Shown piece after piece: positions 1 to 31,400 of a stretch of 64,000 bases of DNA. This DNA comes from Bolinopsis microptera (taxonomy: Eukaryota; Ctenophora; Tentaculata; Lobata; Bolinopsidae). A model generated the notes under the pieces. That model was given only the letters and a program-made list of their open reading frames with translations, was not told where the DNA came from and made no database searches. The stretch spans positions 3,348,001 to 3,412,000 of the forward strand of contig NC_087077.1 in NCBI RefSeq assembly GCF_026151205.1, read 5' to 3'. Both the position numbers and the translations under genes were made by a program. How positions within the stretch are numbered: position 1 is the first letter of the stretch; each line of letters opens with the position of its first letter.

Positions 1-1425
1 TGGTGGGCTACTAGCTATAAAGTACCTGTTGGCTGCTAGACAGGTTAGTGGGGAGTGGCAGGCTCGACATGGTGGGCTACTAGCTATAAAGTACCTGTTG
101 GCTGCTAGACAGGTTAGTGGGGAGTGGCAGGCTCGACATGGTGGGCTACTTGCTATAAAGTACCTGCTGGCTGCTAGACAGGTTAGTGGGGAGTGGCAGG
201 CTCGACATGGTGGGCTACTTGCTATAAAGTACCTGCTGGCTGCTAGACAGGTTAGTGGGGAGTGGCAGGCTCGACATGGTGGGCTACTTGCTATAAAGTA
301 CCTGTTGGCTGCTAGACAGGTTAGTGGGGAGTGGCAGGCTCGACATGGTGGGCTACTAGCTATAAAGTACCTGCTGGCTGCTAGACAGGTTAGTGGGGAG
401 TGGCAGGCTCGACATGGTGGGCTACTAGCTATAAAGTATCTTCTGGCTGCTAGACAGGTTAGTGGGGAGTGGCAGGCTCGACATGGTGGGCTACTAGCTA
501 TAAAGTACCTGCTGGCTGCTAGACAGGTTAGTGGGGAGTGGCAGGCTCGACATGGTGGGCTACTAGCTATAAAGTACCTGCTGGCTGCTAGACAGGTTAG
601 TGGGGAGTGGCAGGCTCGACATGGTGGGCTACTAGCTATAAAGTACCTGCTGGCTGCTAGACAGGTTAGTGGGGAGTGGCAGGCTCGACATGGTGGGCTA
701 CTAGCTATAAAGTACCTGCTGGCTGCTAGACAGGTTAGTGGGGAGTGGCAGGCTCGACATGGTGGGCTACTTGCTATAAAGTACCTGCTGGCTGCTAGAC
801 AGGTTAGTGGGGAGTGGCAGGCTCGACATGGTGGGCTACTTGCTATAAAGTACCTGCTGGCTGCTAGACAGGTTAGTGGGGAGTGGCAGGCTCGACATGG
901 TGGGCTACTAGCTATAAAGTATCTTCTGGCTGCTAGACAGGTTAGTGGGGAGTGGCAGGCTCGACATGGTGGGCTACTTGCTATAAAGTACCTGCTGGCT
1001 GCTAGACAGGTTAGTGGGGAGTGGCAGGCTCGACATGGTGGGCTACTAGCTATAAAGTACCTGCTGGCTGCTAGACAGGTTAGTGGGGAGTGGCAGGCTC
1101 GACATGGTGGGCTACTAGCTATAAAGTACCTGCTGGCTGCTAGACAGGTTAGTGGGGAGTGGCAGGCTCGACATGGTGGGCTACTAGCTATAAAGTACCT
1201 GCTGGCTGCTAGACAGGTTAGTGGGGAGTGGCAGGCTCGACATGGTGGGCTACTAGCTATAAAGTACCTGCTGGCTGCTAGACAGGTTAGTGGGGAGTGG
1301 CAGGCTCGACATGGTGGGCTACTTGCTATAAAGTACCTGCTGGCTGCTAGACAGGTTAGTGGGGAGTGGCAGGCTCGACATGGTGGGCTACTAGCTATAA
1401 AGTACCTGCTGGCTGCTAGACAGGT
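1..1425 (+). repeat. BTAF1: In-frame 69-bp tandem array built from one BTAF1 HEAT exon (about 20.6 copies)
   Basis: The 69-bp unit repeats from the window edge to 1,425 and may extend upstream. It encodes 23 residues including [16 protein letters not shown], which matches the BTAF1 HEAT segment that reads QEQWEVRHGGLLGIKYALAVRQ-like in vertebrates, just before the exon at 2059. Each unit looks like a complete 64-bp exon (from TGGGGAGTGG to CTAGACAG) followed by GTTAG, which is both the start of a splice donor and the AG before the next copy. Since 69 is a multiple of 3, the frame stays open through all copies. The last copy ends CAG|gttagg at 1,423/1,424, in phase 0 with the exon at 2059. Copies differ at only a few bases. 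It could be a true coding minisatellite, a length polymorphism, or partly an assembly expansion. Confidence 0.9.
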
Positions 1426-4400
1426 TAGGCGCTGTTTTTCAGGGTTTTTTTAGGATTCTTATATACCATTAGATTTAATTGTGCGAATATATTACCTTCC
1501 ATATATAATATATAATATGACTTAATATATGTATTATTATACCAATAGAAACGACCGGTTGTATTGAGTCAGATAAATGTTTCAATCGTGCAAAACCATG
1601 ATATCATCAGTGACAACATATTACTATATGTATCATGTATGCTGATAAATTTCTAGCACTCAGTTAATTATGTACATAATTGGTTCATCAAGAGATCAAG
1701 GTCAAACACTCCTCTTTCAACACTAGTCTTTCAATCAACTCTCTTTCAAACACTCCGCTTTCAATCACTCCTCTTTCAAACACCTCTTTCAAACACTCAA
1801 ATTAAATGACTGTGTGTTACTTTATCATTGTGTTCCAAAAGAAGAGACTTCAACCCCTTATCTTATGACATTTGGGGCTATTAAAGAAAATAAACTTGCT
1901 AAATGAAAGAATGCCAGACACCACCTGCCCTGTTGTTATGATAACATTTGGCACAGGCTATATTGTTTCCTTAACCACAGTGCTTACTCATATCACAGAT
2001 TACTAATCAAGTGTTGTCTTCACTTGAAGTGTCAGCTAACATTAGGTGTATTGTTCAGGATATAACGCCACAGTTTCTAACGGCTCTGTTACCACATGTT
2101 ATTAAGAGTGTTAGTGATGATGATGACGATGTGAGGGCGGTTGCGGCTGCTGCGCTTCTTCCTGTGGCTGCCAATGTGAGTTGTGCTGTTTCTTATCTGA
2201 TTGCATGTTTTGGTGGTGAAAGATTATGTTCAACTTATACTATAGAAATCGTTATATTTTCTCAATTTTAATCCTGAAATTATTTTTAAGTATAAGAAGA
2301 TAAACTATTAATTATGAGGCTTAATCTCAAAAAACTAAATCTCCCCGACAGTTACCGGAGAAAGTTCCAGAAGATCTGATATTCGCTCTAACTGACAAAT
2401 TGTGGACTTCCCTGGTTGTTCTGGATGACCTCAGTGCCTCTACTAGCTCGATTATAACTTTACTTGCTGAACTTCTCAAACATAAACACATTTGTGAGTA
2501 AGAGGTATTTAAATACCGTTACACTCTACAGATCACTTGACGAAGGTGCTAAGTAATCGGAATGTGGTGATCCCTTAACACTCAATACTCAACAGGCGAT
2601 TATTACAATTCCGGGAAAAGTGGAGATAGTTTAGACCTGCTGGTCCCACGGTTGCGACCATTTATGTCACATACCATAAGGTCGGAAAAAATTATTTTAT
2701 CTTACCTTTTATATTCTATATTTTGTATTCTACCTTTTTTATTGTACTTAGTAAACTCTTTTAACTATCGTCTATCGTCACGTAAAAGTAAACTGTTTCA
2801 CACTCAGCTGTTTTCTCTGTAAATTGTCTTATGACTCCAGTGTGACCCTCGTGTTTCCTCAATTTGGCCTATTTGGGTCACACGACCCCAATTTAACTGC
2901 AAATTCATCAGATCGGTACGAAGAGACAGCCTGCTAGCTCTGCATGTCTTGTTACAAATCAGAGGTTCCTGGGTCGATAAGATTGCCCCGCTCTTCGCTA
3001 GAGTTCTCTATCAGCGGATATTTCTAGAGGCTGAGGATTCTTTCCACCCCCTCCTAATCAAGGTGACCTCATGCTTGCAAATGAATGACATTCCTACGAT
3101 AGTACGAATGACAGCTTCTTCGACAGCTTCTTTGCCAGCTTCTTTGCCAGCCATCCGAATATGTTTTGTTCGCGCTTATTCCTAATAATATTTCTTAAAC
3201 AATTTTGCTCATTTATTGTAGCGCGCGATAACATTTTGCTATACAGGCCTCTTGCTTTAGAGTCTTCGCGCACGTTAATATTTTTTGCGCACTTGCAGAA
3301 TTAAGATTTACCATGCTGCAAAGTGGCCTAATATCATCCGCAACAACTTGGATCTGTTGAGATGGTCAGTCATTTAAAGATATTTCATTCAGGTCTGGGA
3401 CGAACTGTTCGCTGCCACATCTGAAGATTGTGGTAAGAAGATCGTAACTGACCACCTTCCTCTTTGGTTCCACTTGCTTGGGGCTCCCCCTGGCCTTACT
3501 CTTGATGCTAGTCTTTTCTTCAAGCCTCCCACAGTACGTACTCGTAAATGACTAAATCTTCTTTGATTTACTGCTTAATTCGATCATCCCTGGAAGAGTG
3601 GAAGGATCCACCTGTACCCAATAGTTTTCTGATAGTCAAACTACAGGTCGCAGCACTAAGTGTCCCAATGGGTCCCCGAGAGTTTACTCTGAAATGCAGC
3701 CTTGTTGAAGTGCTGGCTAGTGCCGCTCAAGTTACCGACTTTGCCTTATTCACTCCGCTTATCGCTGGCATGTTGGACTCGGGCTGTGCTTCCCACAAAA
3801 AGGTAAGTCCTCTACAGTAACTTACATTCCAATCAACGTATTTTGATGTTATTGTGGCGTAATTGATTCACAAATTTTGACTCAAAGTCTCCTTTTGAAA
3901 TGGTGACTGGCCCTGCACTGCCAAAGGGGGGGGGGGGGGGGGGGGGGGGCTGCTAAATAGTATTAATCACCATGTTTATACTGCACCTTACTCCAGGGTG
4001 CATGCTTGGTGTTGCAGCAGTTAATAGAACGGTGTAAAGTAAACAAAGAATCTATCCCTGAACTGACTTCAAAGGTCACCACCCTGCTGACCAGCCCCAT
4101 GACATTTGATGAGGTAGGACTTAACATTCGGAAAAGCATCCCCAATAATCCCCAATAATATTATTTTCTTTCAGCAGACCGACATGTTTATTGTCTGAAC
4201 CGGACGATCAATTGATTCCACATCTCGATGACTAAGGCGCGGATAGATAAATCGAGTCTAAAAATATATCTTCTCCCACAGTTTATGAGCAATCACCCCT
4301 CAAACAAAATTTTGAGATAGGACTTTAAAAATTTTGTATTTAATTCTGAAAATCTTGGACCTCGTTTTTTACGATTTTCTCACTCCCCTCTATCAGAAAC

Positions 4401-7400
4401 AACTATAAAGTCAATTTCGAGAGAATTTTGATGAAGACCCCCCCCGGCCCCCTTAAATAACTCGTTCACAGCGTACCTGCTTTAGCTACTGAAACCACCA
4501 TATCAATAGCATGCAACCTCTAGCTTTTTATTTGTGATTCTGATTAATGACTTTCAGTTACTGGCAGTGAATCAAAACCTACAGATAGCATGTAGGGGTC
4601 TCTTATCATCAGCTAAAGATAAGCCAAGTGTGCAGCAGTTCACTGCCCTGCCTAACTTCTCAGTGGAAAATGCTTTCGCTCTCGGTCAGTTTGAGTTGTT
4701 TTTTTAAATTCTTTTAAATTTTAAAGAAGCCTAAAAAACCTTTTAACGCCGCTAAATGATACAAAACCCTGAAAATTGTCTGGAAATAACATGTTCTAAT
4801 ACTCACACAAAATGACGGCTTATTCTTCCGCAGTACAAACATGCAGACAAGCAGGTCACGTGAGCACAGAAGTTAGTGTGGTCGAGGCAGTTTCCCAGAG
4901 TTTCAGTACCTCAAGTATCGTGCTCTCCACCAGAGTTTACAGTGCTCTAGCGGGGACCATGGTACGGTTGGGGGTACTTCCTCCAAAACTGAATCCTGTA
5001 ATTAAACCTATCATGGATTCTATTAAACGGGAGGTTTGTTATGATACTTTTAGTTAATAGAAATCAGGGGCGCTCTGATGAATAAATGGATGACGTCTTA
5101 TTGCTAACAGTGCTTCACTCTGGTGTTTTATTTTCCGCACGAATCAAGCTGATGTTCCTTTAAAATCCCTGACATTGATGGTCTCGTGACTTGTACCACG
5201 TGACATTAATAGCAATCCTGTTCCTAGACTTCAGAAGAACTCCAGATATGTGCAGCACATAACCTACTCCACCTCATACTGCTCGTCAAGGACCGGTCAC
5301 CCTGCCCTACATCTAAAATTATCAAAAATCTCATATCTGGTAATTTTGCTTCACTCTATCTAAAACATTGCTCGAAATTTCAGATTTTATGCATTGCCCT
5401 TATTCCCAATTACATGTATGTATCTTATCAGAAAATTTGTCGCAGGATTGTTAGAGGACAGAGTGTTATACCCGAATGTTGAGTCCAGTTCTAATCCTTT
5501 TCTCTTTACTCAACTGTAAGAAATTGTTGTCTTCTCCTAGTATTTTCTTGGTTAGAGCAAAGTTTTCAACATTCTAGAAAGTGATAAATTTCCAGCATGA
5601 GGAAATGTTTGATCTAAAGCTCACTTTCAAAGTTTTCTCCTCTCTCAGAAGCAACCACGCCGGTAACATGACCCCTGCAGCAGGAGCAGGATGCTGCACC
5701 CCCACTACCCCCTCTACCCCTCTCACTGCTCCTGGAGACATCATGAGCCAACTTGCTACCCTCACCAAGTTCGAGGGCATGATCAGCTATGTTAGCCATG
5801 CTTGCTCCATTGGTAGTAAATCGGGTGAGTTTTTCTGGTAAAGTCAAGTTTGTTGTGTTGGTGAAATGTTCACTATTCGCAAGTCTGAATTCTTTCAACA
5901 ATTACAATACTGGAGGAATTTCGTATTTCCCATGAGCAAATGAATTTTTAACTAAATCATGGAATTGAAAAGTCTGGAGTATTTACCCGAAAATTTTAAC
6001 TTTCGTGATTTCATATGTAATGGTTAATATAAATAAAAGCGTATTATGACAATAAAATACCTATAAAAGTAACATCATCGAATAGATAACTCTAGATCAA
6101 TGAAAAGTCTACGAAAATCAATCTGTAGCTTCAAATGCTGACTCTCGCTCGGTACCAAAACACGTATATTTTTTAGAAAAAGACCACGATACGGTCAATA
6201 ATCTCAGATCGTCACATGACTCCTAGCGTGGATAACATCGCTCTGATTAAATGTTTATCGCTCTTGTTCCCTCGCACTGATCCAGTCATTTCTGTCTTGT
6301 TTAGTGGGGTTTGGAGCTATTGAAATAAATTCTGTCGCAGGAATGAGACATACCTGTCTGATAAAATGTCTCATGATGCTTGGCAGTGGGGGTTTTAGTT
6401 TTTACCTTATTTAAAATAGAGACTAAGCTGACAAATCACATTTTTACGAGTTCTGAATCACTCTGAAACGTCTACTACTACTACGTCAGCATAACATGGA
6501 GGCAGATCCTCCTCCTCCTCCTTTTCAGCTATTGCCTCGGTGTAAGTAGGTAGATCATCAGGGTGTGCCAGCTGATTGATAACAATTTCGTTGTTAGACC
6601 CTTCCTCGACATTATTTACCGGTCTGGTTTGAATGGGAGAACCCCAGTTTTTATCATTCATAGCAACACAAGATATTATAACGATAAAGAAAACAACAAT
6701 CGCAGCACCAATTCCCAGCAGGTAGAGACTTGGGTTCTTCTCCAAACGTATAGCAGTCAATACCGAAGAGTGGTCCCCGAATATTGGCCAATCGTTACTG
6801 TCCTCATCACTATCTGCGACTTCTTCAAAATCTTCAGAATGGTCAAAACAAGATATCGGAGCAGCTTTCCAGAACCGCTTGTAGATGGTCTCAAAATCAG
6901 ATCCAATCAGTTGACATCCCTCTCCGGTTACTCTGGACTGACTGACTGTTACACCGTGACACTCTGGAGTAGCCAAACATTCCCTGAAACAGTCCCCCAC
7001 GGAAGTGTATGTGACTTCTGCGATCAAAGTTCCGCATCCTTTAGTGTTGGGCTCCATCGTGCATAAGTAGTGGGTGTGGGCATGTTGGACTGTTGCCAGC
7101 ATTATAAGGCAAGCTGGGAGGAGGTGGTCATTAAACATTATCTCGTTACCTAAAAAGAGTCGATAATCAAAAATTGTCGCTTATATTGTAATTATATAGA
7201 TATTTAACTGACCTTTGCTGGTCAGAATTAGAAATGGCGTTATTTGACCCAGGGGTCACATGGATCTGCTTAATAAACTGATATCAGCCTTATTTAAACC
7301 AATAAACTGAAATATCATACTAGGTTCAACGGTAGTTGGGACAAATTATTTTAGCAGCAAATGAACCCCCCCCCCCCCCCCTTCCTAGAAGCTTGGGCCT

Positions 7401-10400
7401 AAATGGTGAGCTAGAGACTGCAAACAGTAATCACGAATGTAGTAAATCGCCTTGTAAATTAAAATGTTATCTTGATTGTAAGATAGCGGAACAAATTTGT
7501 CTAAACTCTACTAAGATTAGTGTGAAAAGGAAAATTATCTCTCGAGTTATCGGCACCAAAGTAAAAACGCGATGGCTATAAACTAAATGTACATTTAAAT
7601 AAGGATCTTGTTAAAATATCCATACTTCCCATTTACTTATTTGGATTTATTTTGCTGATTTATTTTGCTGTCCCCACCTTAGCAAGGTGGGGTGACCTTG
7701 CTCGTCATGATATTATGCCATAAGTGGTAGCCAGGATGAAGTAATCACAATTGGTTGTCTCTAGTCTTGTTATGTGAGATCGGTGCTGGGATTTGTGAAA
7801 CTATCATGTGTGTGTGCTCGAGCATGTCTAGAGATCTGATGCCGGGTATAAAGGCTACATACCGCGCCGGGTCCTTGGCATAGGATCACAGGGTTCAATG
7901 GCAGAGAGATCAGAAATTTCTAAACTTTTAGGATTATCGTTTAAATTTCCTGACATGTAGCAACCAGCGCTTGTCAGAAAAAGTTTGGGTCTCCTGTTTG
8001 CTGGAAAAACAAGTGAGATTGAATAACAGTCTAATGTTGGGAATGTTATACAATTGTGAAGTGTCTAGTGTTTAATTGTACAACAATTAAAACAACTAGT
8101 TTGCAAACGAATGTTCGGGAACATTGATCAATTAAAGAATACGTAAATTATTATACGTGTTAAGAGGTTAATTATAAAACATCGTATAATTTAGAAGCGT
8201 TATTTCGCCGGTCATGCCGGCAATCACATGATAAAGAATTCAGCATTAGGCATCATCGGGCAAGGTTCATCTCTAGCCCTGATTAAATGTTTAAAAAAGA
8301 TCGAACCTTCGCATCTTATCTGTGCTATAAACACTACGTCATGACGTCATATAATAATAATCATGACGTATTACACACAAGCGTCCCATCATACAACCTG
8401 GCGACCGAATATCTGCAGAAACAATATGTTGAACACTGTAAGCAAAACAAACTAACCGAGGCACCAGAACTGCAACAAAAGAAAGCACACACAGTGTAAT
8501 TATAATGATCGCAACTAATGTGTTCCTATAAACGCATTCTCTCTCTTTGACTGTATTCAGTAACAAGTATGATAATCTAAGGACTTCACATGCATTTGCG
8601 TGTTATCACAACCACGTGATAATATTAATCCTGGCTACGTGTCAGCATCGATTTTAAAGCTAGGTTTGGAGCGGGTGGAGCGTCTTTTTTTTAAACTTTA
8701 ACGGACAGGAACATCACAACAATCATCAAATGGATGACATTAAAATGAACAGGATTAGAAAGTGATCTCATTCAACAAGCAATGCCGAGACACATTGCTT
8801 AATCTTGAATATACAGGGGGGGGGGGGGGGGGGGGGGGGGGGGAGGGTGCACAGATAATATTCCGGATTAAATGACCTATTGCAATATGTAACAACGGAG
8901 TCTCTAACATGTCTCTAACATGTTCATTCAATGTTGATTCGGTGTGGCCCAAATCAACATTGGTGACAGAATCCTCGAGCAAGTAGGTACAGTATGCCAT
9001 CTGCAAAGCAGCAACTCTCAAATATAAAACACGGCGGTGGTATAAGAGCCAACGTATGAGTACTGACTTTTGTCTCCCCCCCCCCCCCCCTGTATATTTA
9101 ACTTCCTACTGAAACTAAACCTCATGACACCAGTGTAGCTATTACTATGTACTATGAGTATTGCTGAAAGCACAGTGTAAGGCCTACACGGACCGCCTCT
9201 AACTAGCCAATCCCTGTTTACATGCCGTGTAGCAGGGGACTAGAAAGAGCTAAACTAGTAAGCGGGGCATAGCCAATACACTATACTTGGTAATGCGCTT
9301 ACAGGAGCACATAGCATGGGCAACAACAACTAAACAACCGAACACTGAAACTAAACCTCATGACACCAGTGTAGCTATTACTATGTACTATGAGTATTGC
9401 TGAAAGCACAGTGTAAGGCCTACACGGACCGCCTCTAACTAGCCAATCCCTGTTTACATGCCGTGTAGCAGGGGACTAGAAAGAGCTAAACTAGTAAGCG
9501 GGGCATAGCCAATACACTATACTTGGTAATGCGCTTACAGGAGCACATAGCATGGGCAACAACAACTAAACAACCGAACAACAACAAGGTGTTTCAGCGT
9601 AAAGCTCACACTAGGTACGGCGTACGCGACGGGAAAGGTGTAGTCAGTAGTGGGTCGCCAAGGCCAAGGAGAGGTGTAGTGGGGGGGGGGGTGCCGGGGG
9701 ATGTGTAGTGGGTGGAGAGGTGTAGTGGGGGGGGGGGATGCCGAACGAACACCGCCTCGGCGAGACTAGTTCGGTAGAAGGCAGAAGGCAGAAGGCCATA
9801 ATCAACTTCCTAAAACTGGTCGTTCCGGAGATATAAAGGAAGCACAAGGAAATCGAATTAGTATAATTCCGGTCTCCAGATAAGGCCTCCACCCTTATCT
9901 GATGTTTCGAATAAGTATAAGGCCTTTTTCCAGATGTTAACATGAACCGGATGAGATTGATAGAGTTAATTGGCTTTGTCGTTCACTGATCATATTATAA
10001 ATTCAACGGTTATGAATCATCATAAACGGCAGAGGCAACATATAGGTGCGGTAATATTTTGCAAATAGTGTGATTCTGCACTTGCCTGCAATTGTTTATG
10101 TGCGCCACATTTGCAGCGTGGTATATATAACGTTACATTACACGATTGTCGAGTTTAACAAAACAACTGACTCACAAGGTCTTCGGGGTCGTTCACATAT
10201 TACGTAATCAGCTGAGGGGGGGGGGTTCAAAATGATTACGCTAGTGTAATTTTGACACAATAGCTATGTGTATTGTGTAAAACTGATTACGGAGCTGAGG
10301 GGGGGGGGGGGGGGGGTAAAAATGTTCCAAAAAATGATTACGTTATGATATGTGAACGACCCGTTACACCTATAGTTTCATTCACGTTCAATTGTCAGGA

Positions 10401-13400
10401 AACTTTAATTGAATTCATAGTTCTAGATTTACCCTCATTACATAGAAAGATAGAACTGCTTACTCGATTTTCACTCAATTTCTAGAGTAGATTTTTTACT
10501 CGTGCCCAAGTGAAGATCGGTTTTTCTGAATTTTTTCCAAAGATAAGCATTTTGGGTTTTCATGACCTTCATAGTACCAATATAAACATGTGCATTGCGG
10601 TCATTTTAAACTCAGGTTTGAGTCTCTAAGACCTTCAGAAGCTGAGATAAATATTTCCCATATACACACCCCATATGAAATATGGGCGTGGCTCCACAGG
10701 GTTGGGTCTAGCGACACAACCCTCGGTGATTTGACCTATTTAACCCGATTCAGTGGCAAAAAACTCTATGCAGCGAAGTGCACACTCAACCCCTCCCTGC
10801 TACTGAAGTACATAGAATTTAGCATAGTATAATATTTTAACTTTTCAACATTCCAATACGTAATACGTATATACATTGTGTGTAAATACCTGCTAACTAT
10901 AATGTTGTCTAACTATAACTATGTATTTAAACTATAGATGTGGATACTGGTGGGGAGGTGAAACACATTTGTTTACTTTAATAGTAAGCACATGTTCAGC
11001 GGGTTGAGGAGGTGAAACACATTTGTTTACATTTTTAGGGTAAGCACATGTTCAGCGGGTTGAAGAGATGATACACATTTTGTATTATAGAAGGCTTGTA
11101 ACACTTGTAACGCTTTCTTGTTACCCCCCTTTGAAGGCCCCGGATTATTTTCTGAACGAAAGCTCAAAAATAACCGAGAAATCGACTATTCTTATTAACT
11201 CATTTTGATGACTGTTTCTGACCAAAAATTGCACGAAAAATCGATTTAGCTAGGTTTCAGAACCTATAAACACTTCCTTATCCCTTCCTTAAAATTGATG
11301 TTTTATAGTTGATACGAGCAACAAGCAACATATGTTTTGATCCTTCGGTTCTACTCATGACCTAGGCAGTTAAGCTGAACCCGACAGATCGAGGCAATCC
11401 TCACCTTAACTGATCAAACTGGTACTAACACAATTTTCAGATATAAATGTTCTTTGCGATACGTTTATTGCAGCTTTGCAACTTGAGGGAAGACCAGAGT
11501 ACGAAAACACACAGCAGGTAAGCAACTCACTTTTGGTGACTGTTCCTCACGAACATTCTGATCCTGCAACAATTTAGTATACGGTAGCTTAGAAGTGAAA
11601 CCCACTTATTGTAGTACCAACTATGGTCATACGAGACTAAGGAATAATATACATAAATAAGTTACATAATAAATTACCATATATAACAAACATATGAACA
11701 GGGAGATCGTCTCCTTAACAAATCGAACAGGTACTATCACAATTTCCAGAGCAGGTACTATCACAATTTCCAGAGCGTAATTTTCACAATTTCCAGAGCA
11801 TAACAAAGTCAAAAGAAACACAACGAAAGTAGGTTACCAACACCACAATATAACAATTATACTAACAACTGAATTAAATTTATTCTGACGACGGGCAGCC
11901 CTGATGTGCTCCGTCATCCTCAACGAGCGACCACTTGTAATATAGGTGTTCTGTCATGTGACACCGATCCGTCCAATCACAAACAGGACGAGTCAGCAGA
12001 TCGATATCGTGTGTTTACTTTCCTTATCTTTATTTGACCCTCTGTTCACATTGTTATCTCTACCACATCTCGGCTCGGCAAGGTCCACGTGCAATATCTG
12101 CACCGCGGTAATCACGCCATGATTACGTCATGAACTTGAAATGGTGTGATTGTTGTACTTATATAACCGTGCCCATTGCCCACGTACAATACAAACTGTT
12201 GGGGGGGGGGGGGGGGGGGGATTGTAGGAACTTATCGTCCAGTCATGAACAGAATATTAACCTAATTTTTTAGTTATTTAAGCAGACCTGGTCATTTAAA
12301 AAAAAATCACTGTCCACTTCCCTCAAAAAAACAGGGTTCAAATTAACAAGTTGGGCACACACGAATGCGATGTCGCTCAGATAAGGCAACATCTTCGCCA
12401 CAACTTTGTTTCCCATAATCTTGTACCGCTTCAGATAGCCAATTGAGCGTTCCACGTGGATGCGGGCGATGCTGACTTTGCTGCTGGCTGCTACTTCTTC
12501 CGGCGTGAACTGAGTCTTGCCCCACATCCCCGCTGGGATGTTTAGGGTAACTCCTGAAATTTAATTCGCTTTTTAATGCCGCTTATTCTTAACTAACCGG
12601 ACGTTGATTCATCACTCTACACTCAACTGTTACGTGACGTTTCAACACGTAATATGCTGAAACCTTAACGAGAAATTAGAAACCATAGGTCATAGCACGT
12701 TATCTCGCCAGAGGAGCATCATTTGGGTGATTCGCAATCAGCATACAAAAATATAAATACTACGATTTAAGTTGGTTTCAACTGTTAGTGTTATATGGGC
12801 CCGTTCAGAAAAATCTCATATTTCGAGTGTAGCACGGTTGGAACTTACCTTCGGACAAAATGTCGTGAATGAGGAACCCCTTGTCAGCCATCACGTTGTC
12901 ACCAACAGTCACCTTCTGCAGTATGGCACTATCCACTACAATTTCCTTATCGGTTGTGCCACCAGGGTAGCAGCGGCTGACATACGTGATTACCCCACTG
13001 GGCGCAATTCCGATCAGTAACTTGGCTGTGTGCGTAGCTGGAGATGGAACAGAACGATTATGCAGGGGAAATTGTATGAGGTACGAAAGCAGAAGATCTG
13101 TAATTTACGTTGCAGGTTCAGCATTATTGAAAGGTATGATCGACTGAACTTACACTTATAATGGCTGTAACATCTGGCGCCCGACTCAATGTTGGACGGA
13201 GCTTCAATTGGGACCTGTGGATTGTAGGAATTTTCAATTGCTACAGCTGCAATAACAAAATGAAATTTTGAACATCACAATTCGCACCCCGCCGTAATTG
13301 TACTGATGTAGAGAACACCAATTCACTGGTCACGTTCAAAGCGAAATATTGCGTCAACTTATCTGATGTGACTTTCATAATTTTGTCTGAGCTCTAAAGT

Positions 13401-16400
13401 TGTAGCTGCTCATTCGGTTCTGGTAATGGACTCAAATCATACCTCGGTACAGTCAATCACAATCCTAGTGTTGGGGTGTCCTAGATTCTGTTTTTAAACA
13501 CTTACTGTCAAAGTTAAGCAAAGCAGCACTCATGGATATATGCATTATTCCTTTGCTTCCAGTTGGTGTAAACTTAAAGCACAGTTCATCATTTGGATCT
13601 CACTCAGTTCACAATCGCGACCTCATATTAGAGTAAATGTTTTTAATAATAGTCAGGGACGAAACGGAATCTCGTTAGCTTTTCGTGTTAAAAGCGATTT
13701 CTCAACGGTTATCACCTCTCTAGATGATTCTTAAAACATTTGGACTTCATTGCATTTTTGAAATAAATGCAATGAGGGCGTTTTCGGCCACACCCTTTTT
13801 CAGGGTTTCGCGGTCACTCGAATTTTTGTATATCAGCTCAGGAAGGTCTAAAAGACTATTCCGATACACCAAAATGTGCCTAATAGCCACATTTATATAC
13901 AACTTCTGGAGCAACATATACCTTAAAATGCTTCGTTTCGGAATTATGGCCGAAAAACGGTTTTTGGCTTGACGCAGTTCATAATTTCCGTGATTTTTGG
14001 TATTTCCGCCTAGGAAGGTCGTAGAGACTATTCTGATATACTAAAATGTACATAATGGCCACATTTATTTACAACTTATGAAGCAACATATACCCTAAAA
14101 GGCTTACTTTCGGAAATGTGGCTGAAAAACGAAATTTTGCCGAGCGAACAAGACAGTATTCACAAATGGGCTATTGGACTGTTAACTAAAAAGGTCTTAA
14201 AGAAGACTCATGAGGAACATAGCATTTGTCACAAGATGTAAGATGACTCACTTTGTGTCCAGAAACACTCACAAAAATTGTAGAATAATCTACTTTATTG
14301 GGCATCTCTCTTAATGGGCCAGGACAGCAGCATATTTGTGTCTTACGAAAGGGCAATTTTTCAAAATTACGGTTTCTTTAGTAAAGGTCAAAGTAAAGGT
14401 CAAAGGGTCAGTTGCTAACAGCAAATTGTTTGCAATTGCCGACTCATGCACATCATATACTCAAAAACGTTCACTTTAGGAGTGATAAGTAAATAAGTTT
14501 AACTATACTGCATGATTTGTGAAAACTCCAACAATTTTTCATTGGCACCAATTTAGCCAAAATGTAATGACCAAAATTCAACTTTTAATTTATTCATTCC
14601 ATAAAACCATATTGTTGCTTGACCGCTGACCAGTACCCCACTTTATAATTATAATTGACTTCACTGCCTCGACCAATATTGGTCTGTAATCCCTGGATTG
14701 AGATCTGTTGGCTGCAGTTTAATTTAGCTCATTTACCATTTAAATAGTAATACCGCAGTGGTTTGGTTCGCATAGATTTTCCCATCATATGATAATGTGT
14801 GTCATTCCCTCGTTTTTTAATCAAGTGGTTTCTAGCTAGCTCTTTTGTTATTACAGCTGCCTCGAGATCTTATCTAGGGCACTAATGCATTAGTACTAGA
14901 ACACTAGAACTGTAATTCTAGAACTTCAGATTAATATTACTTGACTGAATGGCAGGGTTCGAGATTCGACTCTAAAACTCTCAGTTTAGGAGTGATTAGT
15001 AGATGCATGATGTGCGAAAACTCCAACTAGACAAGGATCATGCTTAAGCAAAGTGTTCCTCGACTTGAACTTAAGTCTCGTAAGCCCAAACTGGAGTTTG
15101 GGCCACTGAATCGAATACAACCTGATATTAATTTTAGGATTTCGGGAAATTCATTCAGATTTTTATTCTTTGGTTTTTCAATTGTGCTACGAATCCGAGT
15201 TTGAGTTGATAACACCGAATTTCCTGTTTGACTCTCAAAGAGAGGAACCAAGGCGTAGGTTCCTCTTTTTGGCTCTAAGATCCAACTTTAAGATCGGACT
15301 TCGGAGATCATTGCGTCGGAGATCATGTAAGTGTAACATCAGTACCGGAGATCAGACTTTTTTGCTTGATATTGGACCTATAAATCTAATGATATATTCG
15401 AAACAGCACGGGATTTAACCAAGGTTAATTTAGATAAGATATACCAGCTTTCGGGGTTACAAGACCCCACGAAAGGCAGGCAGAGCATCCTAAATCCTCA
15501 TGCTATCCTCACGTTGACCATCTAGGTCCATACCCCAGCCTCTCATTAGAAAACAGCTACTAGGCCCGATATCCGTCCCTTGTCCCGTAGTACTAGTGCC
15601 CCGTAAGTAAGAGATCGTTCAGATTTTGGTCATTTAGACCCCCTCCCCGCTCTAAAATCCACTTTAGCACTTTACCCAAAGCTGGAAAAATTTCACATGT
15701 GAAACCTAAATAGCTAAATCAGCATCTCGAGACCTTCTATTATATAAACCCCGTGATCCTACTATAAGCTTATAACTTATAAGGCATTGCATGCCGAAAT
15801 TAAGATCCACCTCAACTGGTGATATGAACCTGGTATGTTACCTGAATGCCCTCAGTCAAATTTCGAACCCTGCTAATGCTATTCTGCCAAGTAACCTTAA
15901 TCTAGGTAAACTATAGGTAAAAATATAATATTAATCATAAGCTAAAATGTACTAATCTTTGTATTCTAAATGGGGAAAAAGAAGAAACATTGTCAGTCAG
16001 TCGAGAAAATTGTCAGTCAGGCTATATGGCAGCTTTGTAGATGTTGTGACTATTCTAGTAGTGGTCCCAGGCTTGCGACTGGAATTGCGGTGTTAAATCG
16101 ATTTAATGGTATACCAACGATCCACCTCCCACTTGTTGTTTGGTACTTAGCATTAATAGTGTTAGCTGTAGCCATTTATAGCAAGAATCTTAAAACTAAA
16201 GGGGATGACAAGGAAAAGAGGAAGGAAAAAGAAAAACGGGACATACAATTAATTAAAGTATTTATAGGAGCATTAGATATTGTAATTACAAGCTTCAATA
16301 ATAAATCACTGACTAAAACTTCTAATTAAAATGACATAATATGAGGTTCTAGAATTACAGTTCTAATGTTCTTAGTTAGTGCCCATGCCCCAGATAAGAT

Positions 16401-19400
16401 CTCGAGGCAGCTGTAATAACAGAAGAACTAGCCAGTCACCACTTGATTAAAAAACGAGGGAATGACACGCATTATCATACAATGGGAAAATCTATGCGAC
16501 AAAAAAAAGAATATGGGGTCATTCTGAAGTGAGAACCAAACCACTGCGGTATTATAGGAAATTAACTAAATTAAACTGCGGCCAACAGATCTCAATCCAG
16601 GGATTACAGATCAATATTGGTCGAGGCACTTAAAGTAGGGTCTGGTCAGCTGTCAAGCAACTATCTGGCCCGGATCCAGTGCCGATTTATTTTAGGTGCG
16701 GTATTCTTGGTACATATATCATGGTTTCATGGCATGAATATAAATAAAAAGGTTGAAATTGAATTTTGGTCAACAACGTTAATGTGGCTCTAGCTATGTG
16801 TTGGTTCAGCCGAATTAATTATTATGTTTAATCAAGTTTATTTTTCTCGTTAGTTGTCATCCGGCCAAACATTAAGCAACTTATATTGCAGTACCATTCA
16901 TCAATTTGTATATCAAAATATGTCATTGTAATTTTGCATGGCTTAAATGTAACGCTTGATTTATATATATAATGATTAATTGAATTTTCAAATAAAAAAA
17001 AAACACGTTTTATTTAAATTGGTGCCAAGGAAAAATTGTTGGGGTCGGGTTGTCACAAATCATGTAGTAGTTATTTACTAATGACTCCTTAAGTGAGCGT
17101 TTTTGAGTATATGATGTACATGAGTCGGCAATTGCGAACAATTTGCTGTTAGCAGCCGATCCTTTGACCTTAAGAAACCGTAATTTTGAAAAATTGCTCT
17201 TTCGTAAGACACAAATATGCTGCTGTCCTGGCCCATTAAAGCATTAAGAGAGATGCCCAATAAAGTAGATCATTCTCCAATTTTTGTAGGTGTTTCTGGA
17301 CACAAAGTGAGTCATCTTACATCTTGTGACAAATGCTATGTTCCTCATGAATCTTCTTTAAGACCTTTTTAGTTAACAGTCCAATAGCCCATTTGTGAAT
17401 ACTGTCTTGTTCGCTCGGCAAAAATTCGTTTTTCAGCCACATTTCCGAAAGTAAGCCTTTTAGGGTATATGTTGCTTCATAAGTTGTATATAAATGTGGC
17501 CATTATGTACATTTTAGTGTATCAGAATAGTCTCTGCGACCTTCCTAGGCGAAAATGCCAAAAATCACGGAAAATATGAACTGCTTCAAGCCAAAAACCG
17601 TTTTTCGGCCATATTTCCGAAAAGAAGCATTTTAAGGTATATGTTGCTTCATAAGTTGTATATAAATGTGGCTATTAGGCACATTTTGGTGTATCGGAAT
17701 AGTCTTTTAGACCTTCCTGAGCTGATATACAAAAATTCGAGTGACCGCGAAACCCTGAAAAAGGGTGTGGCCGAAAACGCCCTCATCGCATTTATTTCAA
17801 AAATGCAATGAAGTCCAAATGTTTTAAGAATCATCTAGAGAGGTGATAACCGTTGAGAAATCGCTTTTAACACGAAAAGCTAACGAGATAGCCTTTTAGA
17901 ACGGTTGGGATCCGACTATAATACGCAATTGGACAACTAAACCGAAACATGCTATAACTAAACAATGTTATTGTTCCGTTCCTGATTGAACAGTTAGCAT
18001 CACAGTCAGTTGGAGGAGCGACCAACACACTATCAAGATCGGTTGTTTATCTTAGTCTACCCCCCCCCCCCCCCCTAACAGTTTGTATTGTACGTGGGCA
18101 ATGGGCACGGTTATATAAGTACAACAATCACACCGTTTCAAGTTCATGACGTAATCATGGCGTGATTACCGCGGTGCAGATATTGCACGTGGACCTTGCC
18201 GAGCCGAGATGTGGTAGAGATAACAATGTGAACAGAGGGTCAAATAAAGATAAGGAAAGTAAACACACGATATCGATCTGCTGACTCGTCCTGTTTGTGA
18301 TTGGACGGATCGGTGTCACATGACAGAACACCTCTATTACAAGTGGTCGCTCGTTGAGGATGACGGAGCACATCAGGGCTGCCCGTCGTCAGAATAAATT
18401 TAATTCAGTTGTTAGTATAATTGTTATATTGTGGTGTTGGTAACCTACCTTCGTTGTGTTTCTTTTGACTTTGTTATGCTCTGGAAATTGTGAAAATTAC
18501 GCTCTGGAAATTGTGATAGTACCTGCTCTGGAAGTTGTGATAGTACCTGTTCGATTTGTTAAGGAGACGATCTCCCTGTTCATATGTTTGTTATATATGG
18601 TAATTTATTATGTAACTTATTTATGTATATTATTCCTTAGTCTCGTATGACCATAGTTGGTACTACAATAAGTGGGTTTCACTTCTAAGCTACCGTATAC
18701 TAAATTGTTGCAGGATCAGAATGTTCGTGAGGAACAGTCACCAAAAGTGAGTTGCTTACCTGCTGTGTGTTTTCGTACTCTGGTCTTCCCTCAAGTTGCA
18801 AAGCTGCAATAAACGTATCGCAAAGAACATTTATATCTGAAAATTGTGTTAGTACCAGTTTGATCAGTTAAGGTGAGGATTGCCTCGATCTGTCGGGTTC
18901 AGCTTAACTGCCTAGGGCATGAGTAGAACCGAAGGATCAAAACATATGTTGCTTGTTGCTCGTATCAACTTTAAAACATCAATTTTGAGGGATAAGGAAG
19001 TGTTTATAGGTTCTGAAACCTAGCTAAATCGATTTTTCGTGCAATTTTAGGTCAGAAACAGTCATCAAAATGAGTTAATAAGAAGGTCGATTTCTCGGTT
19101 ATTTTTGAGCTTTCGTTCAGAAAATAATCCGGGGCCTTCAAAGGGGGGTAACAAGAAAGCGTTACAAGTGTTACAAGCCTTCTATAATACAAAATGTGTA
19201 TCATCTCTTCAACCCGCTGAACATGTGCTTACCCTAAAAATGTAAACAAATGTGTTTCACCTCCTCAACCCGCTGAACATGTGCTTACTATTAAAGTAAA
19301 CAAATGTGTTTCACCTCCCCACCAGTATCCACATCTATAATACATCTAATCGTGAATAAAGTGACTCCATTTCAATCTGTTGAGGGATTACGATCAAAGA

Positions 19401-22400
19401 CCTTCTTTTGTTCTTTATCAATTATCGATAGTATTAAAAGTCGCTGCATCATGAACTTGCCATCTGATTATTAATAATGAACTATCTGCGAATATTTTTT
19501 GGAGGAAAAATTATTCTATATCATTAATTAATCGCATTATACGGCATATGCAGTTAGATAATTAGCGTATATAATGTGCTTCCTGATTTTTTAAAGTAAG
19601 AATTTCTTTCCAATGTTTTTGATGTTAAGTCATGACCCTAACCATAGTTATTATATGGCCATGTCGAATGTCGATCTTATCTCATCGTACATAGCAGTAC
19701 CATGTACTCAAGTATGTTAGAACGAATAACGGCCGATGGTGCGATAAAGTGCGGTATTCGGTCAAAAGTGCGGTTCCGCACCCACCGCACGAATATGTTG
19801 CCTCTGCAGTAAACGGTCGTCATTAGTTGTGAGTTAGCCTTGTTGCGATGCAAATGGCGACTTTGGTTGTAAGTTGTTAAGAGACAACGGTTATGATAGT
19901 TACTTTTAAACCAACCTGATGAGATAACCATACACCACCGAACCTTTTACAATTAAGAGTTATATTATCGGATTTAATTGATATACCGATTGTATTCCAT
20001 TTGTATCATTTCTATTCGACGGAGAACAAAGTCGCCATTACATAGCTTAGGTTGATGAAATAGTTATTAATAGATTAGTGGTTGTGTCTAATCCATTTGA
20101 CTTTGTGATTTCCTGATTTTTTCTTTTTTGGAGTTATAAATTACGACTCACAATATACAGGGTAAAAACCAAGAAATAAAATTACTTTTGTTAAGGCTAT
20201 AGTTGAAAATAATTACTTGGAAATAATAAATAAGTAATACACATGAACATTTTGTAGGATATATTTTTTTTCTAAAATAAAAATTGTCAAATTTATTTTT
20301 CTCGATAAATTGGAACTTAAAGGTTGAATGAGTTTTTAAATTTTTGAATAAAAGTTGAAAGAAACGTAATTGTATTATTTTGTAGTTTAGCTATGTCTAA
20401 GACTGTTCCTAACTAAATTTCAAGCAATTATTTGAAAACTGTTAAATTGTTCCACAGTAGTTTCTTTGTACCCAGCATGGCGGGAACATGGCGGGAACAT
20501 GGCGGGAACATGGCGGGAACACATTGCAAACCTCCGCTTTTATCTACAAGTATTTATAAGAACCTTGGATCACATCCTGATAACTTGGTGGCTGAGTAGC
20601 TAGCAGTGAGCTGTGTGGGATGCACGTGTAGGGGGGTGGAGGCAGGGTACTGGTTACAGGATATTGTAGTGTAGTTTGAGAGGAAGGAATGTATCCAACT
20701 GAGGGTCCTCCAGGAGCGGGACGGGCGATGACGGTAACAGTTATTTGCTGAGGTACTGGGATTTGGGCAGGCGCTCTGGCATTTCGTCGACATATCGACT
20801 TTTTGATGATCACGATTGCAATGGTCACAATTGTAATGATCAGTAGAAAAATAAACACAACTCCTGCAAGACCCGTGTAGTTAATACTTGTTTTAACATA
20901 AATATCATGATAATATGATATCGGCGAAGTAGTTATCGGAGAAGTAGTTGACAGATATGTACTATTATTCATCTTCAAGCCTCAAACTACAACAGAAAAT
21001 GGAGAAGTTTCCAAAGATAATTTGGAACCATAACAAAGTAATAAGAACGGTGATAATTTCTAGCTCCAAGTGGCAATATGGGCATACTGAACCAGGTGTT
21101 ATGTAATGAAATATGATCATACTGTTAGTGTGCCACCTCACCCTTATCTAAATGGTACCTCTTATGTAATGGTGAAATCTTTCGGTTTTGGCTTTACCCA
21201 GGTGGACTGAAAGTTCTGGATCAAATTGTTGGGTCGCGTTGATTCAATTTGGAGATTTTTAATGCAATCCTTTACTTCAGGAAAGCTTCATTATAGTAAG
21301 CATCGGAGTTTTATTATTCTGGCTATCTTCAATGTGAAAAAAGCTGAAGCCAAATAATTGAAACTAGGTTAATAGTAATGGGATACACTGAAATCTGTAA
21401 CCGTCCGCCAATGTCCATGCTCTGTACAACAGATCTGACGAGGTTCGGTTAAAACATTATTTAACCTACAGCCTAGCGAGGCAGAGGGATTTACCGTAAA
21501 ACCCCGATTTACCGCGGCCATTTCCTTCCCCCAAATAGGGCTGAACATACATAATGTAAACAATTGAAACCCCGATTTATCTTTTACTGCAAACCCTGAT
21601 ATTCCGAAGCTTTTTCCTTTTTCGTAAACTCCGCGGCAAATCAAGGAATTTATTACAATTTGTTCCAATAAACTTTGGGCACTTCAGGTAAAGGAAGGGG
21701 ATCCAAGAAAGATCCTGTACCGGAACAAGATCAGACGACCAACATACAAGAGACTACGAGGAGGGGATGTGGTATTGCACTGTCTCACCTAGCTAGAGAA
21801 CTGGGGGAAAGGTTGCTGGATCTGTTAGACGTTCTCGGGAAGGAGGTCTGGAGATTTAATTTTAATTTTGGTATTTTAACGCTGATTTTGAGTTGATACA
21901 CCTTAACAAACCTGAAAAATTTATTTATACAGATGTTGTTGTTTAGGGAATGTCAACACGATTGTTTTGTAGGTGTTCAGTGTGTTAGAGGTGGAGCTGG
22001 AGGTAACGCAGGGGGAGGAGGTCCAGCTCAAAAACAAGGTTTGTTTAAAAACTATTTAGTCCGAGAACAGTTATGTGTTATTGTGTTATTGTGTTATTGT
22101 GTTATTGTGTTATTGTGTTATTGTGTTATTGTGTTATTGTGTTATTGTGTTTAGCGGATATTACAATTCCCGTCCCCACAAAATTCTGGCTTTTCTGAGA
22201 ATTCGCTGATTCTTTAGTGTCCTCCTCCTGTCTCTGTATTAACAAATAATCCCATCTAAAAGTTTAACAAATTTGTTGTACCGGAACGGAATTCATAATG
22301 CAAAACAATCTCATTTGATGTGGATTGGAAATCAAAGATCTGTCTTTCTCGCAACGCAAACTATTTTTGAATTCTGAAAGTTATGGTCGGGTTCTGTTCA

Positions 22401-25400: not shown

Positions 25401-28400
25401 GCAATCGTTCTACTTCTTGGGCAAATGAGGTTATTGAAATTCAAGATAAAGTCCTGTTAATCAAGTGTATGTATCAAGTTTATGTATCAAGTTTAATATA
25501 GGACTATTCGACACGTCATACTGAACACAAAGTAAAAACCACAAAACATAATATGTGCACGTGCGCGTAACGCACCATGCAACTTCCTATTTGTCGGTTA
25601 TATAATTATTTATATTTATATATCAACAGCTGCTGGAACATTGGTATCCTAACAGTTTTAATATTTGAGTATGTTTATGAAACATAATTTCTATCTACTC
25701 ACTCCTTCCCTAAATTTATAGTCAACGGATATAATATATCGAATATTATGTGGAAGAAGACATGAGATACGCTGTGATAGTCTGTTTAGTGATTACATTC
25801 CACCACTGTTTTTCTGAGGAATGTACGATCGTAGAAGTGGGAGATAAAAAGAAATACCTCAAAGAACAATGTGGAAGTCGCTTCAAATGTCCTGTGACTG
25901 ATGAACTGTACTCTGTTGAACTCTACAGAGATAACCCAAAGTGGAACAAATGGTCCCCAAACTGTACTTTAAAGTACGACAAAGCTTGCAGCGATGACCC
26001 ACAATTTTACCAAGTCTGCGGTCACATCAGCTCTGCTTGTCATACAAATTTTGGAGGTGATCACGGTAGAAACCTTTTCTGTCAGTCATACATCTGTGAA
26101 CATAAAGATTACAACCACAGTTTCACGACCACTGGTCAGGGAACGATATCATTTGGAGGAAAGACCTTGTCAGGATTGGTAAACAATCGATATGCTGACG
26201 TAAATGGAGTGGAAACGTGTTCAAATACAAGGATTGACGAGGAGAACAGCCCGTCGGTGAATGATAGTTACATTTGCAAAGGAGAAACAGATTCCTTGAT
26301 ACGAAAGGACCAAACTTGTGACTTGAAATGTGATTGTTATCGCTGCAACGATGAAGCGTTTTGTAGCAATCAAACGTACGGGATTAAGTCCTGTAACTCA
26401 TCAATTGGAGAACACGTCCATGCAATGTACATGTGTGATGGTATGTCACACTGCTACAATGGTGAGGATGAGCAGGAATGTGAGGAGGAGAAGATCATCA
26501 GATACTGCACCCCGGGAGATGTTCACGGACCAAAACACTACAACTTCTTCCCGAACAACATAAGACCGATATACTCTCACCAAATATGTGCAGTTCCAAG
26601 ACTGGGACTCTTTGCTTACACGTGTAAAGATGGACTCGATCAAATCAACTGCACAGATTCTGGCAGGGTAGCTTTTACTTGTAAAATGAATGGTTTCCCG
26701 ACAAACTTGTCGATCTTTACCCTTTGCATGGGCTTTGATTTGTGCGATGATGATTACCAAAACCAATGCGTAGAAGCAGAAAACGGCTGTGTTCTCCATA
26801 AAAGTTTACTGTGCAATAAATATTCCGACTGTCCTCAAGGGGGCGACGAAAGCGATCGTTTCTGCTCAGTAATGTCCAATAGAAGTTGCATAAGGACAAT
26901 ATCAAAAAACGCTCTACCGATTCAATTCCCCATGTCATGGGTTAAAGACGGGATGTTGATTGCAGAGATGGTATTGACGAGGAAGAAAGCCTTTGGCAGG
27001 TATGCGGTAATGGAGCGGTGACAAGGTACTCAGAAGTAGGGGAACAATGTCAGGATGTATTTCTGTGTGGTGGTGATAATGAGCTCGATATTGGTGGTTA
27101 TATTGAGTTGCAGGATTTGTGTGATCAGGTTCACAGTTGTGGGTTGGAAGAAAAAACTTGTGCATCTGCCAGGAATATACCTGCAATCTATAATGAGGTA
27201 TCGCAGCATCGTGAAGAGGGGGCCTTGAAAATAATGCACTGCCTTTATGGACTTGAAAGTGTGAGGTACCTAAAGGGTCAATGCAATGAGGAAATATTCC
27301 AAGGGCCCCATAGAGAAACCTTGGGAGTTCCAGCCGTTTCACTGGTGAAGCCTGTGCAATCAGTTAGCTGTGCCAACACATTTGGAGAGTTGTATGTCTA
27401 TCTTAGCTGCTCTTCATCGTGTACAGACGCATCCTGCCCTTTAAAACCAGTGGGGTCCCAAGATTGTGTAAATATTGATAATCAGATCTTAAGTATCACA
27501 CGTGACTACTGGCTCACGGTAGTGAAGAAACATAAAGGGTCGTACATCAACCCATATTTTCCTTGTGACAATCACAAATGCGTGACTTATGACAAAGTCT
27601 GTGATTTGATAAACGACTGTGGTGACAGCAGCGATGAAACAAATTGTAGCAACCATTTCTTCTGTGAGAATTTATCCCAACGACATCGGTCTGCGATACA
27701 AAATTCGACTGCAGAGACTTTTCTGACGAGTGTGGAGAAGCTTGTAATGTTATATCGAAGAGACTGATACCTGGATCTTTTCTAGCGACTTTCTCATGGA
27801 CTTCAGGGATCTTGGCTTTCATGTTAAATGCATTTGTATTGATAACAACATTGCTGAGCGTTAAGAAGACGAAGTCTCTAAAGCAAAAGCAGGATAAGAT
27901 TTTAATCTTGTTAGTATCGTTGGGGGATTTTACAACCGGCATTTATTTGATCAGTATCGCCGGGTTCGACCTATGGTATGGAAATAGTTTTTGTTTGGAT
28001 AGATTTAACTGGTTAACTAGCTCATACTGTGATTCGCTTGGAGCCCTGAGTACATTTGGAAACCAGCTATCCCTACTTTCCATGACGGGTCTGAGCATTT
28101 CTAGAGTAATGAATTTCGACAATTTGACCAGAGGAGGCACTGCTTCAAGAAAATGTCGTACCATCTTTGTGTCCATGATTGTGTTTTTGATATCAGTTTC
28201 TCTGCTTGTGTCGGTAATTCCCCTTGTTCCAATTCTTGAGGACTACTTTGTTAACGGTTTGTTTTATGATGGAGTAAACCTTTTTTCAGCCACTGTTAAC
28301 AAAAAAACTCACTATAAAATTTTCAAAAACTACTTTGGACGATACAGATATCGATCGATGAGCTGGTCAGAAATTCAGGCAGTTGTTAAAAAGATGTTCT

Positions 28401-31400
28401 CCAATGATTATGGCAATGTTGTTGGTGCCAAAGTTGGATTCTACTCGAATGATGCGGTTTGCAGCTTCAAATATCTGGTAACTATGTCAGATCCACAGTT
28501 CGGATATTCAGTTGGAATTATCTATCTGAATTTCACATGTTTTGTCATAATAACTGCATGTTACTGCTTCATCGAATATACGGTAAGAAAATGTTCAGAG
28601 AACGTTTCTGATGCTGGAAATGTTGTCCAGAGTAAGAATGGAATAAAACTGACGACGAAAGTGGCATTCATTATAGCAACAGATTTCCTCTGCTGGATTC
28701 CATTCATAGTGATCTGCACTCTCCACTATTTGCAGGTAATGGACGCCGCCCCCCTGTACTCTTTATTCTCAATAGTTGTACTACCCATCAACTCTGTGAT
28801 CAATCCTATCCTCTACAGCGCGACTCTTTGGGCTAAACTGTGGTCGTTCTTTGAAGGAACAGGGCGTTTACTACAGGGAATTGTCATGAGAATCAGTGCC
28901 GGTATTGGGAATTGCAACAGAAGAGCGACTGAGGGCACAGGCAATGTGTAATTGTAAAGGGGAGTAAACAGTAAATTGACAAACATCGTAGAACTGTTTT
29001 CTAATTTGTGTTTGGAAACGCTTCCGAATCATTTTGATTTCTAGTTGTTTTATTTTTTCTATTTTAGCTTATTATCCTCATCATTTTAAACTACATAATA
29101 CACCTAGTGATATTTTATATCACCCAGTTTAACTGTCGTTCAGTTCCACATCCCCGAATTTAAATATTATAGATATAAAAGTAAAGCACACCCACTGTCA
29201 ACAGCTCTTCGAACTTCTCCTTGAGATTTTAGTTCAGTCCTTTGTCCTTGAGTTCTTCATTTACTTACAATTCCATCTTGCTACCAGGGTTTAAAATAAA
29301 TAATTCCAAGACGGAGAATACTCCAGAATACTAAAAGAGTACTTTTCTTAAAGAGCTGTTTCTACCAGAACCTATCCCTTAATAGGTTCGGTAGAATATG
29401 CTCTATTTACAGGTAGAATATAAAGTTCAATTAAACTATTTAATTCAATACCTAACTTGGAGCAATCTGGAGATCCGTCTGGAAAGGTTATCTGCCCATT
29501 TTCACAGACTGCTGTGACTTCGCCACCTTTTTTGGCATGTTTCCGAGGACACCTATAAGCTACTTCCGCTCCATTTTCTGCCGGAAACTGCGAGTCTGCC
29601 ACTTCAATGTTCAGCTCAGATTTGAAAGTCTTACAATTAGCTGAAATTTATTAGATAAGGTCTTAATTATAAATCAAGAGGCTTGCATTATATAATGAAC
29701 ATATTGACACGGGTGCAGAGTTGAGTCTGTACGGAACCTAGTAGTTTCAGATCCTTGTTTAACTTGCCGTACAGCAAGGTCATCCACTACTTTAGCCCGG
29801 CGAGGCACATAACTCCCTCCACAACTCCATGACAAATGTTTCATATATACTAGCCGAGTTCACAAGATATATCCTTGTGTTTGAGAAGAGCTCGTTAGAA
29901 CTGCTTCCTTTCCCTTCAGTATCCCACAGTCTCTCGAGTTTCGTAACTGCCAGAGAACTCTCTTAAACAATTACTAGACTCGGTGAATAACACGTTTTAG
30001 ATATTGTGATAAATTGACTTGAAATCATGGAAATGCTCGCCTGAGAAAAATTGGGACCAAATGATCGTATGATAGATTTCTTGAACACGGTCATCGCAAT
30101 TTATGATGTATTCTGACGCATACAATGAAATTAATCACAAATTATTTTTACCATAGCAACTTGGAGGATCACCAGCATGTTGAAGATTCCCATCGTTACA
30201 AGTCGCTTTTTCATCTCCAATGTAAGTGTAGTCTTCAGGACAGCTGAGTGTAACCTCAATCTCGTGTTGAACTGGTAGCTCCGGTTCTGTCAGCACCTTC
30301 TTCCATGTTGGGTCCACTGTGTTGCATTGAGCTGGTTCAACTGAAATGAGCAGTGACACTCTACTTGGAATTCAATGTGTATTGTTCAAAACTCAAAAGT
30401 ATTTTAACTTATTTCTCCCCTTTTTGAAGTACTACTTATCTCACGATCCTAACCTGATTTTTCGCATGTAGGGACCTCGCAGAATTCCCACCGTATGTCG
30501 GGTGAGGTTGTGTAACACCATGTTTCATTGTACCTCTCTCCTGGGTTTCTGCAGTAGTTGTGATCACCTATTCCTTTGTCACCATATTTGGCCACAGTGT
30601 ATCCATGTGGTGTAGGTGATTGTTCAGTCCATTTATGACAAGTTAATCCACTCTTAGTCACAGACCGATTTCCATTGTACCCTGCTCCCTTAGCGTCTCT
30701 GTTGTCTTTGCTCCAACATCCAATATCTGCAATACAGTGTTACTGAAACATTGGGAGGATTACTTTTCCAATTCAAATGGCGTAAAAGTGAACTTAATCT
30801 AGTCTTTTCTGTGGAATTCTCTATGGTGCAGTTTTGCTTCGATCAAATAAACGGTGTATTCATGCGTGCTTCGACGAATTAAATTGAGCTTCGCGACAAA
30901 AGGTAGAGGACATGGGATGCAGATGGTTAATTAAACTAATCAGTCTAATAATTGCTTACCAGAGAAGTAATTACTAAAATACATTTTAAATTTATCTAGT
31001 TTGTATCGAAAGACAATACTTTTGACTCAGTAAGTAAGGAAACCTGCTGCAAGATCTTTACAGCACCAACATGTACCACAGCCGGGTGTGTTCTCATTCT
31101 CTCCTTTCGTATAGCGACCACCAACAAGCCTAAACAATATGCACTATATCAATTACTTCCTTAATTTTGTATCCTTGATCGTTACAAATGAATCATTTAC
31201 GTAAGGTTTAGATATAAGAGGGAATATCTGACCTGTTGCACGCGGTCAGTCCGTCGTTAGCTGCTACCCATTCCCGGTCCTCAGTAGTCCAGCGGTGGCA
31301 TACCCAGTCTTCTTTTCGTTCTGCTGAAATGTTGCAGTGATGATTAAAGAAGACGGTTTGGGGTGTAGTAAATTAAAACTGATTTTAATAAGCAGTGAAT

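Follow-up and report, generated by a model that had tools for sequence, protein, structure and literature searches.

How does a conserved gene accommodate an exon that has been copied in tandem at least 20 times, with a candidate splice donor at every junction? BTAF1 is a conserved, probably essential gene and a core TBP regulator, and the array considered here lies at the left edge of our window (the whole 64,000-nucleotide stretch of Bolinopsis microptera DNA that was analysed). TRF describes positions 1-1428 as a repeat with a period of 69, 20.7 copies, 98% matches and 0% indels. Exact parsing gives 20 full units of 69 bp on the plus strand (44-1423), each opening with GTTAG and continuing for 64 bp up to a final CAG; they are preceded by the last 43 bp of a further unit (1-43), truncated by the edge of the window. 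The array ends sharply at 1423: the 3′ flank shares no more than GTTAG (1424-1428) with the start of the unit and then continues with GCGCTG. The copy number is a lower bound, the left border and the native acceptor lying outside the window. The original prediction that a BTAF1 exon has been amplified at least 20 times in frame is borne out by the 20 full units and the partial one, by the open frame and by the Mot1/BTAF1 match. Its description of the unit as a 64-bp HEAT exon plus GTTAG holds for the 69-bp unit and for the HEAT region, while the true start of the exon falls outside the window.

The 20 full units are 94-100% identical in pairwise comparison (mean 98.5%, without indels) and fall into five variants, which follow each other in the irregular order ABBCDEDDDDBBEBDDDDBD. 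A 29-base piece of the unit, searched with up to 3 mismatches allowed, occurs 20 times at 0 mismatches, compared with 0 occurrences in 100 shuffles; no further copy with 3 or fewer mismatches was found elsewhere in the window. Relatives of the locus were sought in a protein scan of viral contigs, where none of the 17 pattern matches was a relative, and a 20-base unit pattern had 0 matches in viral contigs. The sole match to that pattern among genome contigs, in a Pseudomonadales MAG, covers only about 20 bases and was taken as chance.

The array leads into a gene that continues on the plus strand. Behind an intron at 1424-2058 lies the next BTAF1 exon (2059-2175, phase 0), followed by exons at 2352-2493, 2596-2680, 2912-3062 and 3393-3533, the last of which falls within the Mot1 match with its first residues alone, and by seven more BTAF1 exons whose ends were set by eye (3647-3802, 3997-4113, 4558-4684, 4834-5033, 5228-5339, 5446-5515 and 5649-5824). 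One unit joined to these 12 exons (2059-5824, set by eye) encodes a stop-free peptide of 554 residues, and all 11 introns between the exons run from GT to AG. The unit and the next five exons match the solved chains 7zb5, 6g7e and their relatives (E of about 7e-25, 235 residues, query 4-195), and in the alignment the unit shares its W, HGG, Y, A and R with chains of the 7zb5/6g7e type; the joined 554-residue peptide matches the same group with an E of 2e-31. These chains carry the database label "Helicase-like protein", and we take them to be Mot1. The unit and five exons alone stayed below the Pfam cut-offs for HEAT_EZ, HEAT and DUF3535, and the joined peptide gave DUF3535, a domain presumably linked to Mot1/BTAF1, at 143.9 bits (cut-off 26.2; residues 264-486, profile 123-383 of 448).

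A tblastn search with an approximate human BTAF1 sequence as bait placed 17 of 19 pieces, at up to 91% identity, in order between 4920 and 57706, covering the SNF2 ATPase, and the remaining two were out of order with E >1. The pieces of the C-terminal HEAT region and the SNF2 ATPase extend over 25 kb of the plus strand (32580-57706), with exon ends that are mostly approximate. No tblastn piece in the window corresponds to residues 1-265 or 352-495 of the bait, and the gap for residues 352-495 falls in 5825-32579. Judging from sequence, the BTAF1 gene is likely to be intact across the window. The identification of the gene as BTAF1, with the array in its HEAT region, was confirmed by the 7zb5/6g7e match, DUF3535 and the SNF2 ATPase pieces.

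Other features share this window with the gene. On the plus strand, open frames at 25735-28951 contain an LDL-receptor class A repeat and a rhodopsin-type 7TM domain; they are probably part of a receptor gene that lies inside a BTAF1 intron. Within the BTAF1 gene, the opposite strand holds an EamA-type transporter frame (51575-52729), a 240-codon open frame with no Pfam match at E 0.001 (6458-7180), and a weak CYYR1-like match that is below the cut-off (20544-20981). The segment at 10954-11804, also within the gene, recurs inverted at 18474-19318 with 98.7% identity over 850 bases, and the whole of 10954-19318 is probably a mobile element of recent origin, at least about 8.4 kb in size and bounded by long inverted arms. 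Two tandem 236-bp copies with a 100% match occupy 9108-9580, and runs of at least 18 G stand on the plus strand at 3926-3949, 8816-8843, 10299-10316 and 12201-12220. An open frame at 62215-63999 (plus strand), which runs off the end of the window, resembles a Penelope-type reverse transcriptase by eye and has no Pfam match at E 0.001.

In the reading frame of BTAF1, the unit consists of 23 whole codons, and the 23-residue translation is the same in all 20 full units. The frame that begins at base 2 is open across the array for 474 codons, up to 1423; when the intron behind the array is read through, a stop follows at 1453. One open frame into the next exon had been predicted: this stood for the array itself, and the frame continues into the exon at 2059 after splicing only. 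With a complete codon (CAG) at the end of the array and phase 0 at the start of the exon at 2059, any junction used as a donor would give an open frame. The choice of donor shifts the length of the mRNA by multiples of 69 bp, and the frame holds (69n mod 3 = 0).

Variation among the full units is confined to four sites, all of them synonymous (CTA or CTT, TAC or TAT, CTG or CTT, and CTG or TTG). The chance that four of four are synonymous is 0.005-0.01 by formula and 0.006 by simulation; the TAC/TAT and CTG/CTT variants always co-occur, so that the variation can be counted as three events, for which the chance of three of three is 0.02-0.03. Variation of this kind favours the view that selection acts on the protein in many copies. 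A young array into which old allelic synonymous differences had been shuffled could show the same pattern, and four sites are few. A long reverse-strand ORF over the array was also considered as a gene and rejected, as the variants change residues there and yield three period peptides, compared with one in the BTAF1 frame.

The 20 internal junctions, CAG/GTTAGT (the slash marks the exon end), are candidate donors on the plus strand, the first at 41-49 and then one every 69 bp, with the last at 1352-1360; a final junction, CAG/GTTAGG at 1421-1429, leads into the unrepeated intron. The 9-mer CAGGTTAGT occurs 21 times on the plus strand of the window and 0 times on the minus strand: 20 copies are in the array, and the sole copy outside it (41158-41166, plus strand) stands at the inferred end of an SNF2 exon. 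A position matrix was built from 18 donors of the BTAF1 gene, set by eye and including the identical site at 41160; of the 19 donors gathered, one was left out for a wrong coordinate. The donor at 41160 has a left-out score of 9.71, the third best of the 18, and the internal array donors score 10.5 with the full matrix, which contains that identical site. Only 0.11% of 3661 plus-strand GT sites to the right of the array, a set that contains the real donors, reach 10.5. The last donor, CAGGTTAGG, scores 6.4, which is mid-range, above 9 of the 18 left-out scores and reached by 2.7% of the GT sites. By this matrix, CAG/GTTAGT would be a strong donor for the BTAF1 gene, and the expansion seems to have yielded donors that score above the native one. 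The expectation of about 21 near-identical splice donors proved correct for candidates, 20 of one form and one of the other.

The junctions are less convincing as acceptors. GTTAG had been proposed to serve as both donor start and pre-acceptor AG, and the donor half of that proposal agrees with the scores above. The AG of GTTAG scores -8.7 as an acceptor in a matrix from the BTAF1 gene, which is very poor, and since an intron of 5 bases is too short to be spliced, GTTAG was ruled out as an intron in itself; the term can therefore refer at most to how the unit arose. The CAG that precedes GTTAG appears to be the better acceptor candidate, with a score of 7.18, above 15 of 18 BTAF1 acceptors (left-out) and reached by 2.6% of background AG sites. 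AGGT is present at 20 of the 20 internal junctions. No match to yTnAy was found 10-50 bases upstream of the CAG in the unit tested, whereas such a branch-point match is present in 16 of 18 BTAF1 acceptors, and it is for this reason doubtful that the junction AG acts as an acceptor in the way of human UBC. The shortest of 14 measured introns, one of them with an approximate end, has 102 bases, as against 69 in the unit.

Structure prediction gave a divided picture. For four units, AlphaFold places one helix in each unit at modest confidence (pLDDT 72.6, pTM 0.45). For 20 units, the best of five runs is a beta model with a pLDDT of 88 and the other four reach 39-44, a result that is unreliable. 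The two predictions disagree and support nothing firm on the structure; on the shorter model, the repeat unit probably forms one helix.

These results can be joined in a scenario to which we give slightly less than an even chance, namely that an in-frame ladder of donors puts a variable number of units into the BTAF1 mRNA. On this view, the 69-bp minisatellite would have arisen from a short BTAF1 exon and the five bases that open the intron behind it, and unequal exchange or conversion would keep the array uniform. With a strong donor and 23 codons in every unit, the array would act as the ladder: an acceptor that we infer upstream of the window would open the exon, and any of at least 20 donors could close it. 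The frame would then be kept whether the BTAF1 mRNA held a single unit or many, and the BTAF1 protein from some transcripts would have a HEAT solenoid enlarged by additional 23-residue repeats. Such a frame-neutral ladder would allow a conserved gene to tolerate the expansion. The original prediction had offered two outcomes, translation of all copies or the picking of one donor. This was too narrow because every junction is a frame-0 donor candidate, and the mRNA is open whether it takes up one copy, all copies or some of them. The array is also compatible with fixed use of one donor. As a further step, array length and donor choice might together set the length of the HEAT solenoid and produce a graded family of BTAF1 proteins, a suggestion that we make tentatively.

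Other readings of the array were weighed against the donor ladder. The whole array might be one long exon, running from the first acceptor to the last donor, with at least 20 units translated and more than 450 residues added. The frame that stays open throughout, the same 23 residues in all full units, the synonymous nature of the differences and, at modest confidence, the helix per unit in the four-unit model agree with such an exon, but 20 donors scoring above the last one would have to be skipped, the insert would sit within a conserved HEAT solenoid, and the 20-unit prediction, unreliable as it is, gave beta structure instead of helices in its best run; on balance we think it unlikely. A single unit might instead reach the mRNA, with the other copies forming an intronic minisatellite without effect on the protein. 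If splicing took the first strong donor behind the acceptor, the exon would be normal, in keeping with the conserved and probably essential nature of BTAF1. Unused copies should gain amino-acid changes, however, and there are none in the 20 full units, although homogenisation or the youth of the array could explain their lack; our estimate is that this, too, is improbable.

The remaining two readings have much lower odds. Following the pattern of human UBC, units might be spliced out as introns of 69n bases between CAG/GT sites with a double role as donor and acceptor. AGGT at each junction and the acceptor score of the CAG speak for such removal, and length would be no obstacle to the joint removal of two or more units, but the missing branch-point match in the unit tested and a unit length below that of the shortest measured intron make it highly improbable. 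The array might also be an expansion made by the assembly, the genome holding fewer copies or one. Its position at the window edge is consistent with this; the irregular order of the five unit variants is unexpected from a simple assembly loop, and we see very little likelihood of an artefact.

The donor ladder has partial parallels in known systems. Coding VNTRs of the mucin or PRDM9 type are, like the BTAF1 array, in-frame coding minisatellites that are kept uniform, but unlike it they usually lie within one exon and have no donor in each unit. Coding repeats with AGGT junctions are known from human UBC and VCX3A, and UBC is the closest proven case: the AGGT junctions between its ubiquitin units give rise to RT-PCR ladders in one-repeat steps (PMC10809524). 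The BTAF1 array resembles UBC in its tandem coding units, an AGGT at each junction, a length divisible by 3 and a frame that is kept when units are removed. UBC is built of 228-nt ubiquitin monomers and has a demonstrated RNA ladder, whereas the BTAF1 unit is short and probably one helix; the unit tested also has no branch-point match.

Two further comparisons concern splice signals. In the potato RdRp gene, an intron was gained from a duplication spanning an intron-exon boundary (PMC4974935), and there, too, the duplicated segment carries splice signals. That case involves one duplication and one new intron, in contrast to at least 20 copies and no proven intron in BTAF1. In Drosophila recursive splicing, donor strength is reported to be a potent determinant between two competing donors (PMC8605326); ratchet points share with our junctions the adjoining AG/GT acceptor and donor and an outcome affected by donor competition, but those studied are in long introns and not in tandem coding arrays. 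Searches of the open-licence literature found no prior minisatellite with a splice donor, no duplicated BTAF1 exon and no earlier case in connection with donor competition; among the papers listed, judged by titles and the starts of abstracts, there were no comparable tandem coding exons and no BTAF1 tandem repeat in the HEAT region. For dual-specific splice sites in tandem, the UBC work was the sole case found there (PMC10809524). Either outcome had been expected to be new for this family, and that judgement needs qualifying: arrangements of its kind are already known from UBC and VCX3A, and no BTAF1 precedent was found in the open-licence literature.

If the proposed ladder is true, the array would be a natural test of how the spliceosome chooses among at least 20 identical tandem donors, and a case of a coding minisatellite tolerated in a conserved gene. 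It would also illustrate the early phase in which duplication gives rise to a new intron or exon. The cell could make BTAF1 with one copy of the unit, with many, or with any number between, and the length of the BTAF1 HEAT solenoid may then vary between transcripts or individuals.
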